From an uncultured Clostridia bacterium (GTDB lineage Bacteria; Bacillota; Clostridia; Oscillospirales; Ruminococcaceae), in contig CANQXS010000005.1 of the NCBI GenBank assembly GCA_947627875.1, positions 1 through 64,000 of the forward strand: DNA of 64,000 nucleotides, given 5' to 3'. The position numbers were made by a program, and so were the translations under genes. Position 1 is the stretch's first letter. The number at the start of each line of letters is the position of its first letter. The notes under the pieces are model-generated. The model saw nothing but the letters and a program-made list of their open reading frames with translations. It did not search any database and was not told the origin of the DNA. Positions 26,928 to 30,960 of this stretch are shown piece by piece.

Positions 26928-27070
26928 TTTTTAACTAAACGTCACCGTTTCATCACAAAGCTATCATAAACAGGGTATATATTGATAACTGTCAAAGGGA
27001 AAAGAATCCCCGAGGCAAATAAAAAGTCCAAAACCGCATACAATATAGTATCCTAAAGGAGGAAACCACA

Positions 27071-27502
27071 ATGTTAGTACCTTATGTAAGAAGAAATCTT
27101 TCAGCCTTTGACCCGTTCCGTGAGCTCGATGAAATTGAGCGCGCATTCTTCGGGAATAACGACAGCAAGGTCGCCGCTTTCTCGACCGATATCCGCGACA
27201 ACGGCAGCGAGTTCGTCCTCGAGGCAGACCTCCCGGGCGTCAAGAAGGAAGACATCAAGCTCGACCTCTCCGACAACATTCTGACCATCTCCGCCGAGCG
27301 CCACTCGGAATACGAAGAGAAGGACAAGAAGGGCAACTACGTCCGCTGCGAGCGCTCGTTCGGCTCCTACCAGCGCAGCTTCGACACCACCGGTATCGAC
27401 GTCGATAAGATCGACGCCGAGTTCAAGGACGGCGTCCTGAAGCTCACGATGCCGAAGCTCGTCGAGAAAAAGCCCGAGCCCAAGCGCCTCGAAATCAGAT
27501 AA
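27071..27502 (+). CDS. Small heat shock protein Hsp20 (alpha-crystallin family)
   Basis: A 143-residue ATP-independent holdase chaperone. The alpha-crystallin domain covers residues 35-130 with VLEADLPGVKKEDIKLDLSD, LTISAERHSEYEE, ERSFGSYQRSF and FKDGVLKLTMPK; a C-terminal IXI-like LEIR tail is present. ATG 27071 follows AAAGGAGG. The upstream CIRCE-like element suggests heat-shock control through HrcA. CATACAAT at 27038-27045 also resembles a sigma-E type -10, so a sporulation input is possible but unproven. A strong terminator follows. Confidence 0.93.
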   Translation: MLVPYVRRNLSAFDPFRELDEIERAFFGNNDSKVAAFSTDIRDNGSEFVLEADLPGVKKEDIKLDLSDNILTISAERHSEYEEKDKKGNYVRCERSFGSYQRSFDTTGIDVDKIDAEFKDGVLKLTMPKLVEKKPEPKRLEIR

Positions 27503-27507
27503 GGCAA

Positions 27508-27545
27508 AAAAATCCGGCGTCCTTTGCGGGCGCCGGTTTTTTGTA
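27508..27545 (+). terminator. hsp20 terminator
   Basis: CCGGCG and CGCCGG with further pairing inside (27512-27535), followed by TTTTTTG. Confidence 0.8.
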
Positions 27546-27559
27546 TTCTTTTTTCTTGA

Positions 27560-27712
27560 GGAGCATTTAATTTCCGCCGTGGCGCATTCCGCCGGGGCGG
27601 AAATTTTTAAAAACCGACCGTGACGCATTCCGCCGAGGCGCATTTAAAATCCGCCGGGGCGGAAATTTTTAAAAACCGACCGTGACGCATTCCGCCGGGG
27701 CGCATTTTATAA
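27560..27712. repeat. 62-bp tandem repeat, two full units plus fragments
   Basis: The unit starting CCGCCGGGGCGGAAATTTTT occurs at 27589 and again at 27651, period exactly 62, and includes AAAAACCGACCGTGACGCAT. Short partial units (GCGCATT, TCCGCCG) flank it. The stretch between hsp20 and the DUF1292 gene has no coding potential. Confidence 0.75.
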
Positions 27713-27740
27713 AAAAATTCTCAGAATTTTTTTATAAAAT
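27704..27740. repeat. 37-bp perfect AT-rich palindrome
   Basis: Arms 27704-27721 and 27723-27740 (18 bases each, beginning ATTTTATAAAAAAATTCT) are perfect inverted copies around a single C. It abuts the tandem repeat. It could act as a terminator in both directions or be the end of a small element. Confidence 0.8.
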
Positions 27741-27979
27741 CCGCCCTGCCGATATTTGCGGACATAAAACCCGCACGAAGCAGGGTGGGTAAAAACGCCC
27801 CAAGGATTTCTCGCTCCCTTCGTCCGACGGCTTGCCGTCGGGAGGTCTGCAGTCCGCCCTCGGAGGACGAATCCCTTAATTTATGTGTTGGATTTAAAAA
27901 ACCGCAAATTGTCGCACAAGGCAGAAAAAAGTCTTATTTATCTGCGCTTATTCTGCGCAGCCGAAGCCGTAATATACGT
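27741..27979. other. Gene-free stretch with small GC hairpins
   Basis: Contains a hairpin CCGACGG/CCGTCGG near 27820-27840 and CTGCGC/GCGCAG near 27943-27961 but no gene with a ribosome site. The latter hairpin precedes the 3' end of the minus-strand DUF1292 gene and may end its transcript. Confidence 0.4.
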
Positions 27980-28333
27980 TCAGGATTCCTCTCCGGCGTA
28001 ATCGTTGCCGTCGAAGCCGTCGTCGTATTCTTCGCCGTCCTCATCGTCGCCGTCGTAATATCCGTCGAGCCTTTCTAAGAAGATGTTCCCGATGCGCTCG
28101 TATTCCTCGTCGTCGTCAACGGTGACGAGAATCTCGCCCTCGGGGTCTTCAAGCTTTAAAACTACGAGCTGGGCGTCGCCGGTTATCGAATCCTTCGGGT
28201 CGTCGTAAACGGGAACCATCGCGTAATAGGTGTTGCCGTTCTCCTCGTAGGTGTCGAGCAGCTCGAAGGTATGCTCCTCGCCGTTTTCGTCCGAAAGGGT
28301 ATATATATCGGGGTTATAATCGAAGTCTTTCAT
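27980..28333 (-). CDS. DUF1292 family protein
   Basis: A 117-residue acidic protein with the DUF1292 layout: TLSDENGEEHTFELLDTYE, YYAMVPVYDDP, VVLKLEDPEGEILVTVDDDE and EEYERIGNIFLERL. The last 25 residues are a low-complexity Asp/Glu/Gly tail. Members occur widely in Firmicutes, often near yrvL/ruvX-type genes, with no proven biochemical role. Here it is a single-gene unit with its own near-consensus promoter, transcribed away from the putative RNA unit on the plus strand. Confidence 0.88.
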   Translation of the reverse strand: MKDFDYNPDIYTLSDENGEEHTFELLDTYEENGNTYYAMVPVYDDPKDSITGDAQLVVLKLEDPEGEILVTVDDDEEYERIGNIFLERLDGYYDGDDEDGEEYDDGFDGNDYAGEES

Positions 28334-28369
28334 AGCGATTTCCTTTACATTTTTATTCGCAACAAATTT

Positions 28370-28398
28370 ATTATATCCGATATCGCATTCAAAGTCAA
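28370..28398 (-). promoter_or_regulatory. Promoter of the DUF1292 gene
   Basis: On the minus strand, TTGACT (28393-28398) and TATAAT (28370-28375), spacer 17 bases. Confidence 0.75.
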
Positions 28399-28456
28399 GA
28401 GGGTAATTGTAAACAAAATATTAAATAAAAATTTTAAAAAAATTTTAAAAAAAGTA

Positions 28457-28485
28457 TTGACAATCTCTAAAAAGTATGCTATATT
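28457..28485 (+). promoter_or_regulatory. Promoter of the SD-repeat RNA unit
   Basis: TTGACA (28457-28462) and TATATT (28480-28485), spacer 17 bases; transcription would start near 28492. Confidence 0.75.
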
Positions 28486-28491
28486 ATAGAC

Positions 28492-28885
28492 ACAGAGAAG
28501 AGAGAAAGAAAAACGAAAGAAAAAATCCAAAAGGGAGAGGGTTCCAATGAAGAGGTAAACTCAATTCACAAGTCGCAGGTCAACCCCGACGATTTTATGA
28601 AAGCAGTGATTCCTATGAAACTCGCAAGATCCTGGATTTGAATCCGAAATAAATCCGAAAGAGGTGAGTCCGGCATACAGTTAAGTTTTGATTCAGATTC
28701 ATACAACTAAAAGCTCACAGAATAATCTACGGAGATGATTCCGATGAATGTTAATAAACACAAAATTCTCTGAAATGCTTTGAAAGGCGTGAATCCAATG
28801 AACAGGTGTGTTACCGCTTAGCGGATAAAGTAAAAAATAAAATTTTATATATAGAAGAAGCGGTGCAAAAGCCGCTTCTTTTGTA
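28492..28885 (+). ncRNA. Candidate non-coding RNA or long leader with five extended-SD repeats
   Basis: A near-consensus promoter at 28457 and a hairpin terminator at 28857-28884 bracket about 390 bases with no long reading frame. Inside, five segments resemble GAAAGGAGGTGATTCC, the complement of the 3' end of 16S rRNA, and four are followed by NATGAA; the ATGs are at 28547, 28615, 28744 and 28798, and the fifth segment (about 28658-28680) reads GAAAGAGGTGAGTCC. Each could start a micro-reading frame of 3 to 9 codons (for example MKR, MNRCVTA). The terminator lies directly before the ribosome site of the next gene, so this may be an attenuated leader or an independent RNA. Confidence 0.55.
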
Positions 28886-28886
28886 A
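28855..28886 (+). terminator. Terminator or attenuator hairpin before the 28.9-kb gene
   Basis: GAAGCGG and CCGCTTC with an 8-base loop, followed by TTTTG. It is followed within four bases by AAGGAGAG, the ribosome site of the next gene. Confidence 0.7.
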
Positions 28887-28898
28887 GGAGAGCTGTTT

Positions 28899-29246
28899 AT
28901 GACAAAAAAGATTTTAGCCTGCGTCTGCGCTGCTGCGTTAATTCCCGCCGCGCTTCTGCCTGCGCAGCTCAAAGCCGCCGAGTCCGACGCCGACGCGGAT
29001 CGAATGCATATAGTCGAAAGCTTCCCCTATGACCCCGCCGACCCCGACCACGATTACCACGCCGACGGCTATTATCTCCGAGAGGAGACCGAGAACTGGA
29101 CCGAAGAGGACTGGGAAAAATTCTTTGAAAAATATCCCGACGAATACGATATTTACAGAGGTCCCTTCGTATGGGATTATAGTCCTGATCCGTATCCTTC
29201 CCGACCGACCGAAGGCACTGTGCAGATTTCGGAATTTGAGCATTGA
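28899..29246 (+). CDS. Small secreted acidic protein, unknown function
   Basis: A 115-residue protein with a signal peptide (residues 1-26, cleavage near LKAAES) and an acidic mature chain rich in Asp, Glu, Tyr and Pro (DYHADGYYLREETENW, then EEDWEKFFEKYPDEYDIY). No domain recognised. ATG 28899 follows AAGGAGAG. The only promoter seen is that of the SD-repeat RNA unit upstream, so its expression probably depends on reading through the hairpin at 28857-28884. A strong terminator follows at 29266. Confidence 0.7.
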   Translation: MTKKILACVCAAALIPAALLPAQLKAAESDADADRMHIVESFPYDPADPDHDYHADGYYLREETENWTEEDWEKFFEKYPDEYDIYRGPFVWDYSPDPYPSRPTEGTVQISEFEH

Positions 29247-29263
29247 TTTGTCTAAACAGTATC

Positions 29264-29292
29264 TGCCGCCCCCCTCGGGCGGTTTTTTTATG
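29264..29292 (+). terminator. Terminator after the small secreted gene
   Basis: CCGCCC and GGGCGG around CCCTC, then seven T. Confidence 0.85.
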
Positions 29293-29445
29293 CCCGAAAT
29301 TTTTCAAATCGGTCATTACCGTGATACAAGCCGAATATATATGTCTTGAGAAATCAGAAGTCAGAAATGTACGGAAGACCGAGGTCGGAAGTCGCGCCGT
29401 TCTGACCTCTGACCTCTGACAATCTGACATTAAATAGGAGGAGCT

Positions 29446-30960
29446 ATGGATTTTAAGCTTACAAGGGAGAATTTCACCGTTCAGAAGGCGCTTTTAGATA
29501 CGGTGAGTGAGCAGTCGCTCGAGCTCGACTACGTCCTGCCCGATTACTGCCCCGAGATTTTTAAGGTTTTGAGCTGCCGTATCTATCCGTCGGCAGCCCG
29601 CAGGACCCTGAACGGGACAAAGCTCGGCTACGAGCTTACCGCGCTGGTGAGGGTCGTTTACGTTTCGGAGAGCGGCGAGATATCCGCCGTCGAGCAAAAG
29701 CTCTCATACGACAGGTCCGCCGAGCTGAGCTACAGCCCGAAGTCGCCGGTAATATTCATCGACCCCGCAGTCGAAACAAAGAGCTGCCGCGTTGTCAACA
29801 AGCGCAGGATAGACATAAGGGGAGTCATCTCGATAGCGGTAAAGGTTATGGCAGACGAGCCGCGCCAGGCGGTCACATCGGCGCAGGGCGGGGGGATACA
29901 GCTCAGAAAGACCCTCGTCACCTATCCTTCAAAGCGGCTTTTCATCACAAAAAGGGTAACCGTTATCGACGAGGTCGATATAATCCAAACCAAGCCGCCG
30001 GTGGGGGTAGTGCTTCGTGCCGACGCCGCCGTAAATTCCGCCGAGAAAAAGGTCCTTTCGGGGAAGCTCCTGACAAAGGGCGAGGCGGGGGTAACCGTCA
30101 TCTACATTCCCGAGGGCGGGGGAGAGATCGAAAAGATAAGCTTTGAGCTGCCGTTTTCTCAGGTCTCCGACGTCGAGGGGCTCGACGAGCGCTGCGACGT
30201 TTTCGTCGACGCCTCCGTTTCGGGCTGCGAGATACGCCCTCTTTCAAAGGGCGAGCCCGCAAAGATAGAATGCGAGCTCGGTATCGACATAAGCTGCCTT
30301 GCGCTTAAATTCGAGAGCGCCCGCCTTGCCGACGACGTTTTCTCGACCGAATGCGAAGCAGTCGCCGACAGGACCGACTGCTCGATAGAATGTGTTCCCG
30401 TCCAGGTGAACGAGGCGCATAAGGTCAAAACAACGCTTACCTACAGCGAGGGCGAGATAAAGAGCGTGCTGTTCGCCTGCGCCGAAGCGGGAAAGCTCAC
30501 CGCCGCCGCGAAAAAGGCGGGCGGAAAGCTTACCTTCACCGTTTTTGCAAAGAACGAATCGGGCAAGCCGATATGCCTCGAAGCCGATGTTCCTTACGAG
30601 CACGAGCTCGAAAACCCCGTCTGCGATTGCTCCTATTCCGATCTCAGGGCGGCGGTCGGCGCGGTCACCTACAACCTGACGAGCTCGAACGCAATCGAGA
30701 TCTGCGCCGACGTAAAGATAAAGGGCTATATCTGCGAGGCGAAAACCGGCAGCTTTATCGGAGACATACGCCTCGACGAGACAAAGCCGGTAATGCGCGA
30801 CCGCGACTGCTCCCTCAAGCTCTATTACGCCGAAAAGGGCGAGCAGCCCTGGGAGATAGCCAAGCGCTGCCGCGCGAGCCTCGGCGCGATACTCGAAGAA
30901 AACGAAATAGACAGCGAAGCGGTGGAAGAAGGCTGCATGCTGTTGATACCGATAGAATGA
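29446..30960 (+). CDS. sipL: Spore coat assembly protein SipL-like (DUF3794 + LysM)
   Basis: A 504-residue protein with repeated DUF3794 domains (for example LLDTVSEQSLELDYVLPDYC then PEIFKVLSC) and a C-terminal LysM-like segment (about residues 455-503, YAEKGEQPWEIAKRC to LLIPIE). In Clostridioides difficile SipL has this architecture and binds SpoIVA through LysM to place the coat around the forespore. Its gene lies 12 bases before spoIVA, which supports the same role. ATG 29446 follows AGGAGGAG. A loose inverted repeat rich in GACCTCTGAC lies just upstream (29355-29430). Confidence 0.85.
   Translation: MDFKLTRENFTVQKALLDTVSEQSLELDYVLPDYCPEIFKVLSCRIYPSAARRTLNGTKLGYELTALVRVVYVSESGEISAVEQKLSYDRSAELSYSPKSPVIFIDPAVETKSCRVVNKRRIDIRGVISIAVKVMADEPRQAVTSAQGGGIQLRKTLVTYPSKRLFITKRVTVIDEVDIIQTKPPVGVVLRADAAVNSAEKKVLSGKLLTKGEAGVTVIYIPEGGGEIEKISFELPFSQVSDVEGLDERCDVFVDASVSGCEIRPLSKGEPAKIECELGIDISCLALKFESARLADDVFSTECEAVADRTDCSIECVPVQVNEAHKVKTTLTYSEGEIKSVLFACAEAGKLTAAAKKAGGKLTFTVFAKNESGKPICLEADVPYEHELENPVCDCSYSDLRAAVGAVTYNLTSSNAIEICADVKIKGYICEAKTGSFIGDIRLDETKPVMRDRDCSLKLYYAEKGEQPWEIAKRCRASLGAILEENEIDSEAVEEGCMLLIPIE

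Follow-up and report, generated by a model that had tools for sequence, protein, structure and literature searches.

In the window, by which we mean the whole 64-kb stretch of DNA analysed, we identified a unit of about 390 bases that carries five tandem ribosome-binding elements between a promoter and a terminator-like hairpin and that is kept across the genus whichever gene follows it. Four of the elements precede frames of 3–9 codons and the remaining one has no start codon. Two of its frames change in a coding-type manner, its spacers diverge and RNAalifold gave no supported structure, so that the sequence has the look of an open message, free of conserved folding and divided into several tiny cistrons. 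We tentatively propose, with rather less than even confidence, that it encodes a polycistronic micro-ORF RNA that would engage ribosomes, either as a reservoir or as a sink or sensor of translation capacity.

Layout of the unit in the window

The array promoter is near-consensus and strong-looking, and a transcript of ~390 bases is predicted to run rightward from it (about 28492–28885). The unit and its surroundings comprise the following features:

27734–27930, reverse strand: 6S RNA gene (RF00013 at 49.9 bits), next to the DUF1292 gene on the side away from the array
27980–28333, reverse strand: divergent DUF1292 gene, a conserved neighbour through which the unit was located in other genera
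28432–28456, forward strand: UP-element-like A/T tract (24 of 25 bases A/T), just upstream of the -35 box
28457–28485, forward strand: promoter TTGACA-N17-TATATT with extended -10 (TG), from a promoter scan
28530–28558, forward strand: element A, ribosome site AAAGGGAGAGGGTTCC and micro-ORF MKR (28547–28558), from the sequence
28599–28641, forward strand: element B, GAAAGCAGTGATTCC and micro-ORF MKLARSWI (28615–28641), from the sequence and codon comparison
28657–28675, forward strand: element C, start-less extended Shine-Dalgarno GAAAGAGGTGAGTCCGGCA, in which GCA replaces the start codon
28731–28773, forward strand: element D, GGAGATGATTCC and micro-ORF MNVNKHKIL (28744–28773), from the sequence and codon comparison
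28782–28821, forward strand: element E, GAAAGGCGTGAATCC and micro-ORF MNRCVTA (28798–28821), from the sequence and codon comparison
about 28853–28882, forward strand: terminator-like hairpin with a T4 end, from the predicted fold
28899–29246: secreted-protein-like gene of 115 aa, no Pfam match

The TTGACA-17-TATATT promoter named in a preliminary description of this DNA was seen at 28457–28485, with TG before the -10 box. Seven promoter-pattern sites in the window scored at least 11 of 12 and three of the seven have the TG; among these three, near-pure A/T upstream is found only at the array promoter (16/25 and 17/25 at the other two). Relatives are likewise A/T-rich at the matching place upstream of the promoter, as judged by eye. 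All five tandem elements claimed earlier are present, with their TCC at 28543, 28611, 28669, 28740 and 28794, i.e. at measured spacings of 68, 58, 71 and 54 (54–71 bases). NATGAA follows four of them and opens the frames for MKR, MKLARSWI, MNVNKHKIL and MNRCVTA exactly as described, and the third is without ATG: element C reads GAAAGAGGTGAGTCCGGCATAC, with GCA where A, B, D and E have ATG. The motif GTGANTCCNATG has four copies in the 2.57-Mb genome to which the window belongs, two of them within the array (backward control, one), and a longer form of it has two copies at one mismatch, both in the array. The purine-preceded motif TGRN(T/A)CC, by which arrays were recognised in other genera, occurs 8 times forward and 5 times in reverse in the 64-kb window, and the sole forward cluster of three is the array. 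We take the array to be beyond chance because it is conserved, and the scarcity of GTGANTCCNATG in its own genome was counted as well.

The 3′ end, claimed to be a hairpin plus T-run, held up in part: the predicted fold has the hairpin with its T4 end, but the lists of both terminator scans lack it. In several relatives the hairpin that occupies this place ends in a longer T-run. Directly after the hairpin come the ribosome site and the ATG (28899) of the secreted-protein-like gene, as had been stated. The fold of the window's unit as a single sequence is unremarkable (z = -1.41). A tRNA or tmRNA was rejected by a search of positions 27000–30000.

Conservation and coding constraint within the genus

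DNA of the unit was matched in 22 of 24 other genomes of the genus. A 22-base element C pattern, allowing at most two mismatches, was found in 30 of 31 genus genomes with one match each; the genome missing it is 86% complete. The unit is thus kept in relatives, and the lack of conservation that the preliminary description held would speak against it was not observed. GCA occupies the start position in all 30 genus C matches listed, which were obtained with a pattern that itself contains GCA and permits two mismatches. Among 297 genomes of the family, the C pattern was present in five of the window's genus and, with two mismatches, in one other; this lone non-genus match looks like chance. Exact matches with names (n = 21) were all metagenome-assembled and labelled Clostridia, Oscillospiraceae or Ruminococcus, and viral contigs contained no exact copies of the C pattern.

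The order of ribosome sites and micro-ORFs is kept while the spacers diverge. Mean identities to the window over ten species, with segment limits that are off by about one base, were 0.96 for ORF B and for element C, 0.97 for motif D, 0.88 for ORF D, 0.92 for motif E, 0.93 for the start of A, 0.76 for ORF E, 0.79 for motif A and only 0.64 for motif B; the spacer between A and B had 0.50 and the other spacers 0.61–0.78. The frame of ORF B reads MKLARSWI in all 16 copies from 13 clade-1 species (the surplus copies derive from duplications in loci L018 and L062), with eight synonymous and no nonsynonymous distinct codon variants (2.3 synonymous expected, P = 4e-5). ORF D has eight synonymous and three nonsynonymous variants among 12 sequences of the same length (P = 9e-4). 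ORF E keeps seven codons and a stop in all 13 clade-1 species, its peptide being variable in the middle (four synonymous and four nonsynonymous substitutions, P = 0.14). Element A opens MKR and a stop in 4 of 13 clade-1 species and MKR, four variable codons and a stop in the other 9. These substitution tests count distinct variants, ignore the tree and leave out frames of other length (D of L016). As change in B and D is nearly all synonymous and the spacers have diverged, ORFs B and D are probably translated. The coding-type pattern of B and D in clade-1 species, such as a micropeptide gene would have, bears out the earlier proposal of micro-reading frames.

RNAalifold on 11 clade-1 species, leaving out L018 and L062 with their duplicated units, gave an energy of -20.2 with a covariation term of +1.07 and no supported structure, and a conserved RNA fold in clade 1 was rejected for want of covariation support in this alignment. 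The covariation term for 11 clade-2 species was +0.74, a figure from which we draw no conclusion.

The unit is independent of the downstream gene according to gene content. The window's secreted-protein gene was detected in 3 of 30 genus loci, and because it is present in so few the unit is most probably not a leader. By eye, a truncated copy of this gene lies in L009, a look-alike in L062, and different small secreted-like genes at the same spot in some other relatives. In some genus loci the array is followed by genes that, by eye, resemble rpe or the window's SipL-type gene; a Pfam scan of three neighbouring proteins in the window returned DUF1292, SipL and no family. On its other side lies the DUF1292 gene, from which the array is divergent in 28 of the 30 genus loci (L014 had no match and L020 is cut by a contig end). 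A terminator-like hairpin lies 395–1468 nt from the start in 28 of 30 genus loci; the one counted in the window, L009, L012 and L062 is a later hairpin, the nearer one having failed the terminator filter. The earlier view of an independent promoter–terminator unit is supported by these data.

Array length varies. In L023 and L054 the array is longer than 1.4 kb. Three genus loci (L055, L056 and L057) were read by eye rather than by the automatic scan; in L055 and L056 (from about 770 and 820) the array likewise extends over more than 1.4 kb and contains several ATTGAGTCC-ATG units, and a scan of 2.2 kb turned up no terminator. The A–B pair is tandemly repeated in L018 (three copies) and L062 (two), and the later A copies in L018 begin with GTG. 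From these repeats, arrays seem to grow by duplication. The last 300 bases of L023, right after the array terminator, hold a GC-rich near-tandem repeat (GTGCCGAGTGCGCCACATGTGCC-like).

Arrays in other genera and pairing with the 16S rRNA tail

A DUF1292 match was present in 132 of 138 genomes of the family. Of these 132, 90 loci were examined from the best DUF1292 scores down (G119 was passed over); three belong to the window's genus, and the other 87 come from 68 further genera. Counted in the divergent direction, purine-preceded TGRN(T/A)CC motifs numbered three or more in 33 of the 87 other-genera loci (25 of 68 genera) and in none of the 87 on the reverse strand. Forty-four loci (35 genera) had at least two motifs, and 39 (31 genera) at least two motifs plus a matching promoter. 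A promoter of the same type lay within 330 nt in 55 of 87 loci, compared with 4 of 87 in the control; 16 loci had the promoter and fewer than two motifs. Since 21 of the 87 loci had no motif and 22 had one, the array is absent or unrecognisable, as far as these motifs reveal it, in many other-genera loci. At order level, 30 DUF1292 loci were returned and 28 new ones examined, 21 of them from other families. Only L157 had two motifs, all others having none or one (L155 was covered over 366 bases), and none of the 21 loci from outside the family had more than two motifs, with two in one.

TGRNTCC followed by one base and ATG or GTG was found 94 times forward and twice in reverse in the 87 loci. 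In the 33 loci with at least three motifs, to which the count of frame lengths was confined, ATGs behind strong sites numbered 185 forward and 31 reverse, and the frames of these had at most three codons in 54 and 3 cases. Behind weak sites on the same strand, 71 of 412 frames were this short. The share of minimal frames thus rises from 17% (weak sites) to 29% (strong sites), an enrichment that is modest given 54 of 185 versus 71 of 412 and near-equal medians (11 codons behind strong and 11.5 behind weak sites). Minimal frames elsewhere include ATG-AAA-TAG, ATG-GCA-TAA, ATG-GAA-TAA and similar ones (MK, MA, ME).

Two types of element recur when motifs are filtered for at least eight purines in the preceding 12 bases: I elements are start sites, and T elements consist of GGAGTGAGTCC, then a non-start codon and roughly NNNANTTTAGCTT, as read by eye. 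T elements are often preceded by a frame ending in asparagine- or lysine-isoleucine-stop (NI or KI), and those of other genera keep extra downstream sequence, about NTTTAGCTT, for which 16S pairing does not account (both by eye). Element spacing in other genera is not strictly periodic. A reading of the T elements as GTG starts (V-S-P-x frames) was rejected after reading by hand: the frame is often open, but the GTG abuts the Shine-Dalgarno core and its frame relation to B is not kept. In some other-genera loci, among them L069, L074, L086, L089 and L090, a first frame of ~15–25 codons, often starting M-D/E/Y-x-x-E, stands before the minimal frames; such a long first frame is absent from the window's unit. 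In non-genus loci the trinucleotide ahead of N-ATG tends to be complementary to the ribosome site (GGA/TCC, GGT/ACC); with the TCC cases removed, 37 such pairings were observed for 22.7 in permutations (sd 4.2), a value reached in 1 of 1000. This weak signal hints at a further RNA or protein partner.

The end of the genus 16S rRNA (GGCUGGAUCACCUCCUUU) was taken from G002; it is present in two of 25 genomes, the window's own assembly not among them. Element C pairs almost fully with the 18-nt tail at -22.7 kcal/mol, a strength reached by 0.028% of sampled 24-mers of the window. Among window 24-mers, in which sites of -10 kcal/mol or stronger are common, element A ranks in the top 1.9%, D at 6%, E at 7% and B at 43%. 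Near-complementarity of all five elements to the 16S 3′ end, as first described, is therefore exceptional for C, only fairly strong for A, D and E, and ordinary for B. The C elements of the genus (n = 30, chosen by their GCA) have a mean of -21.8 kcal/mol (shuffles, -8.8) and the T elements of other genera (n = 55) a mean of -16.3 kcal/mol (shuffles, -9.5). The I elements average -11.5 kcal/mol in the genus and -14.5 elsewhere (shuffles, -7.7 and -8.7). Pairing of C with the tail extends into the start-codon position, which would suit docking without initiation. The suggestion that the elements act as ribosome decoys fits the start-less element C best; the other four resemble start sites. The earlier view that ribosome-binding sites are repeated here is supported.

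Candidate functions and related systems

We are led to a ribosome-directed RNA because the unit combines a promoter, repeated ribosome sites, tiny frames and a start-less element with no gene to control. A self-contained RNA, presumably transcribed in abundance if its strong-looking promoter is a guide, would carry a string of ribosome-engaging elements, of which the I elements would start very short frames and the start-less, super-extended Shine-Dalgarno T elements (C in the window) would dock 30S subunits. The array RNA is probably translated, and its key property would be to keep numerous rounds of initiation and termination, or docked 30S subunits, on a single RNA. Loaded in this way, it may act as a ribosome reservoir, or as a sink or sensor of translation capacity, and not in the control of a neighbouring gene. 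The main fact that pure loading leaves unexplained is that B and D are conserved as peptides, and a further point against this reading is that four of the five elements are not exceptional when set against the 18-nt 16S tail. The modest enrichment of minimal frames and the other-genera loci with one motif or none also count against it. In our ranking, peptide function comes next after the reservoir, sink or sensor, and a ribosome-stabilised carrier RNA after that.

In a micropeptide operon, the products of the message (e.g. MKLARSWI and MNVNKHKIL) would act as peptides, for instance as signals or in ribosome stalling. The conservation of B and D at the peptide level speaks for it, as do the frames ending in NI or KI and a stop that recur before T elements in other genera. 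We nevertheless regard it as unlikely: A and E vary, C has no start, other genera use one- to three-codon frames (MK, MA, ME) at many sites, and no export or processing gene was found among the three neighbour proteins scanned. That A and E are short and variable and that two-codon frames are frequent in some arrays argues against a peptide function for all frames. Less likely still is an RNA that is protected by its ribosome sites in the manner of STAB-SD and has its function elsewhere, such as in the T elements or in a 3′ product that acts by base pairing or protein binding. The start-less Shine-Dalgarno elements resemble STAB-SD (PMC7509114), and the sequence kept downstream of T elements goes beyond 16S pairing, but clade 1 shows variable spacers and no additional segment that is notable for its conservation.

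The preliminary description had proposed that the unit is a leader and that its translation may govern read-through into the secreted-protein gene, and the hairpin directly before the ribosome site of that gene is what speaks for it. We consider this highly improbable, as gene content largely contradicts it: the array is kept ahead of other genes, and the gene itself is rare at these loci. Least credible, to the point that we give it practically no weight, is an RNA of the CsrB/RsmY kind that titrates CsrA by GGA motifs. Tandem GGA-containing motifs do occur in many arrays, but B, C and E of the window are without GGA, and CsrA was found in none of the 16 genus genomes searched (of 31 in the genus set), although the same search was positive in two of nine other-family genomes and in E. 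coli, B. subtilis and T. maritima. Titration of CsrA is therefore contradicted for the genus.

That no named RNA class has this layout, as first suspected, agrees with our searches. Rfam gave no family above the gathering cut-off inside the arrays of the window and 23 related loci, only 6S RNA and one SAM riboswitch outside them, and the best sub-threshold matches in the window fall on the terminator hairpin; open-licence papers yielded no description of the layout. STAB-SD elements and two-codon minigenes come closest, and both are described as sites that precede a gene. In STAB-SD, which stands among start-independent Shine-Dalgarno stabilisers (cry, ermC, ompA), 30S binding without translation stabilises an RNA (PMC7509114). 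Element C and the T elements are alike in that a strong Shine-Dalgarno without a start codon would recruit 30S there, and C has the extended Shine-Dalgarno without a usable start. STAB-SD sites, in contrast, are described in the leader of one protein gene, whereas the array alternates sites and micro-ORFs and appears to serve no conserved gene; it stands upstream of the same protein gene in 3 of 30 loci, and at many loci a terminator-like hairpin intervenes. Regulatory minigenes of two codons (axe-txe mg2, LEE1) are described as acting in cis on the gene that follows, a key parameter being the distance to it (PMC8708949). They resemble the MK, MA and ME frames of other genera in having a strong ribosome site, AUG, one or two codons and a stop; a ribosome site with a one- or two-codon frame is found in other genera, and the window's frames have 3–9 codons. 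They differ from the array, whose frames form a unit of their own, and no conserved same-strand adjacent gene on which these could act in cis is apparent from the sequence.

Leader peptides and attenuators have short frames upstream of a hairpin terminator, and in this the array is like them. It differs in being without a conserved regulated gene (3 of 30 loci) and without a conserved alternative structure, none with covariation being found by RNAalifold in the 11 clade-1 species. 6S RNA (RF00013), a housekeeping RNA that acts on RNA polymerase, has its gene close by; the array itself has no Rfam match to 6S. A wider version of our preferred reading, in which a single-locus RNA across the bacterial family would use minimal start-stop cistrons and start-less docks to buffer, store or sense free ribosomes (or initiator tRNA), beside 6S RNA, is doubtful.

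If the ribosome-engaging reading is true, there would be an RNA of little but ribosome-binding sites and minimal frames at one chromosomal locus genus-wide and in many genera of the family, and with it a new way of acting on translation capacity in trans. Genes of two to nine codons, a size well under any cut-off used in annotation, would then exist as a natural set. It would further become possible to ask directly if free ribosomes can be titrated or reported by an RNA, the role that 6S RNA has for polymerase. A 6S RNA gene was also seen in the fetched loci L018, L023, L070, L083, L085 and L090, and in L070, L083, L085 and L090 DUF1292 stands between it and the array.
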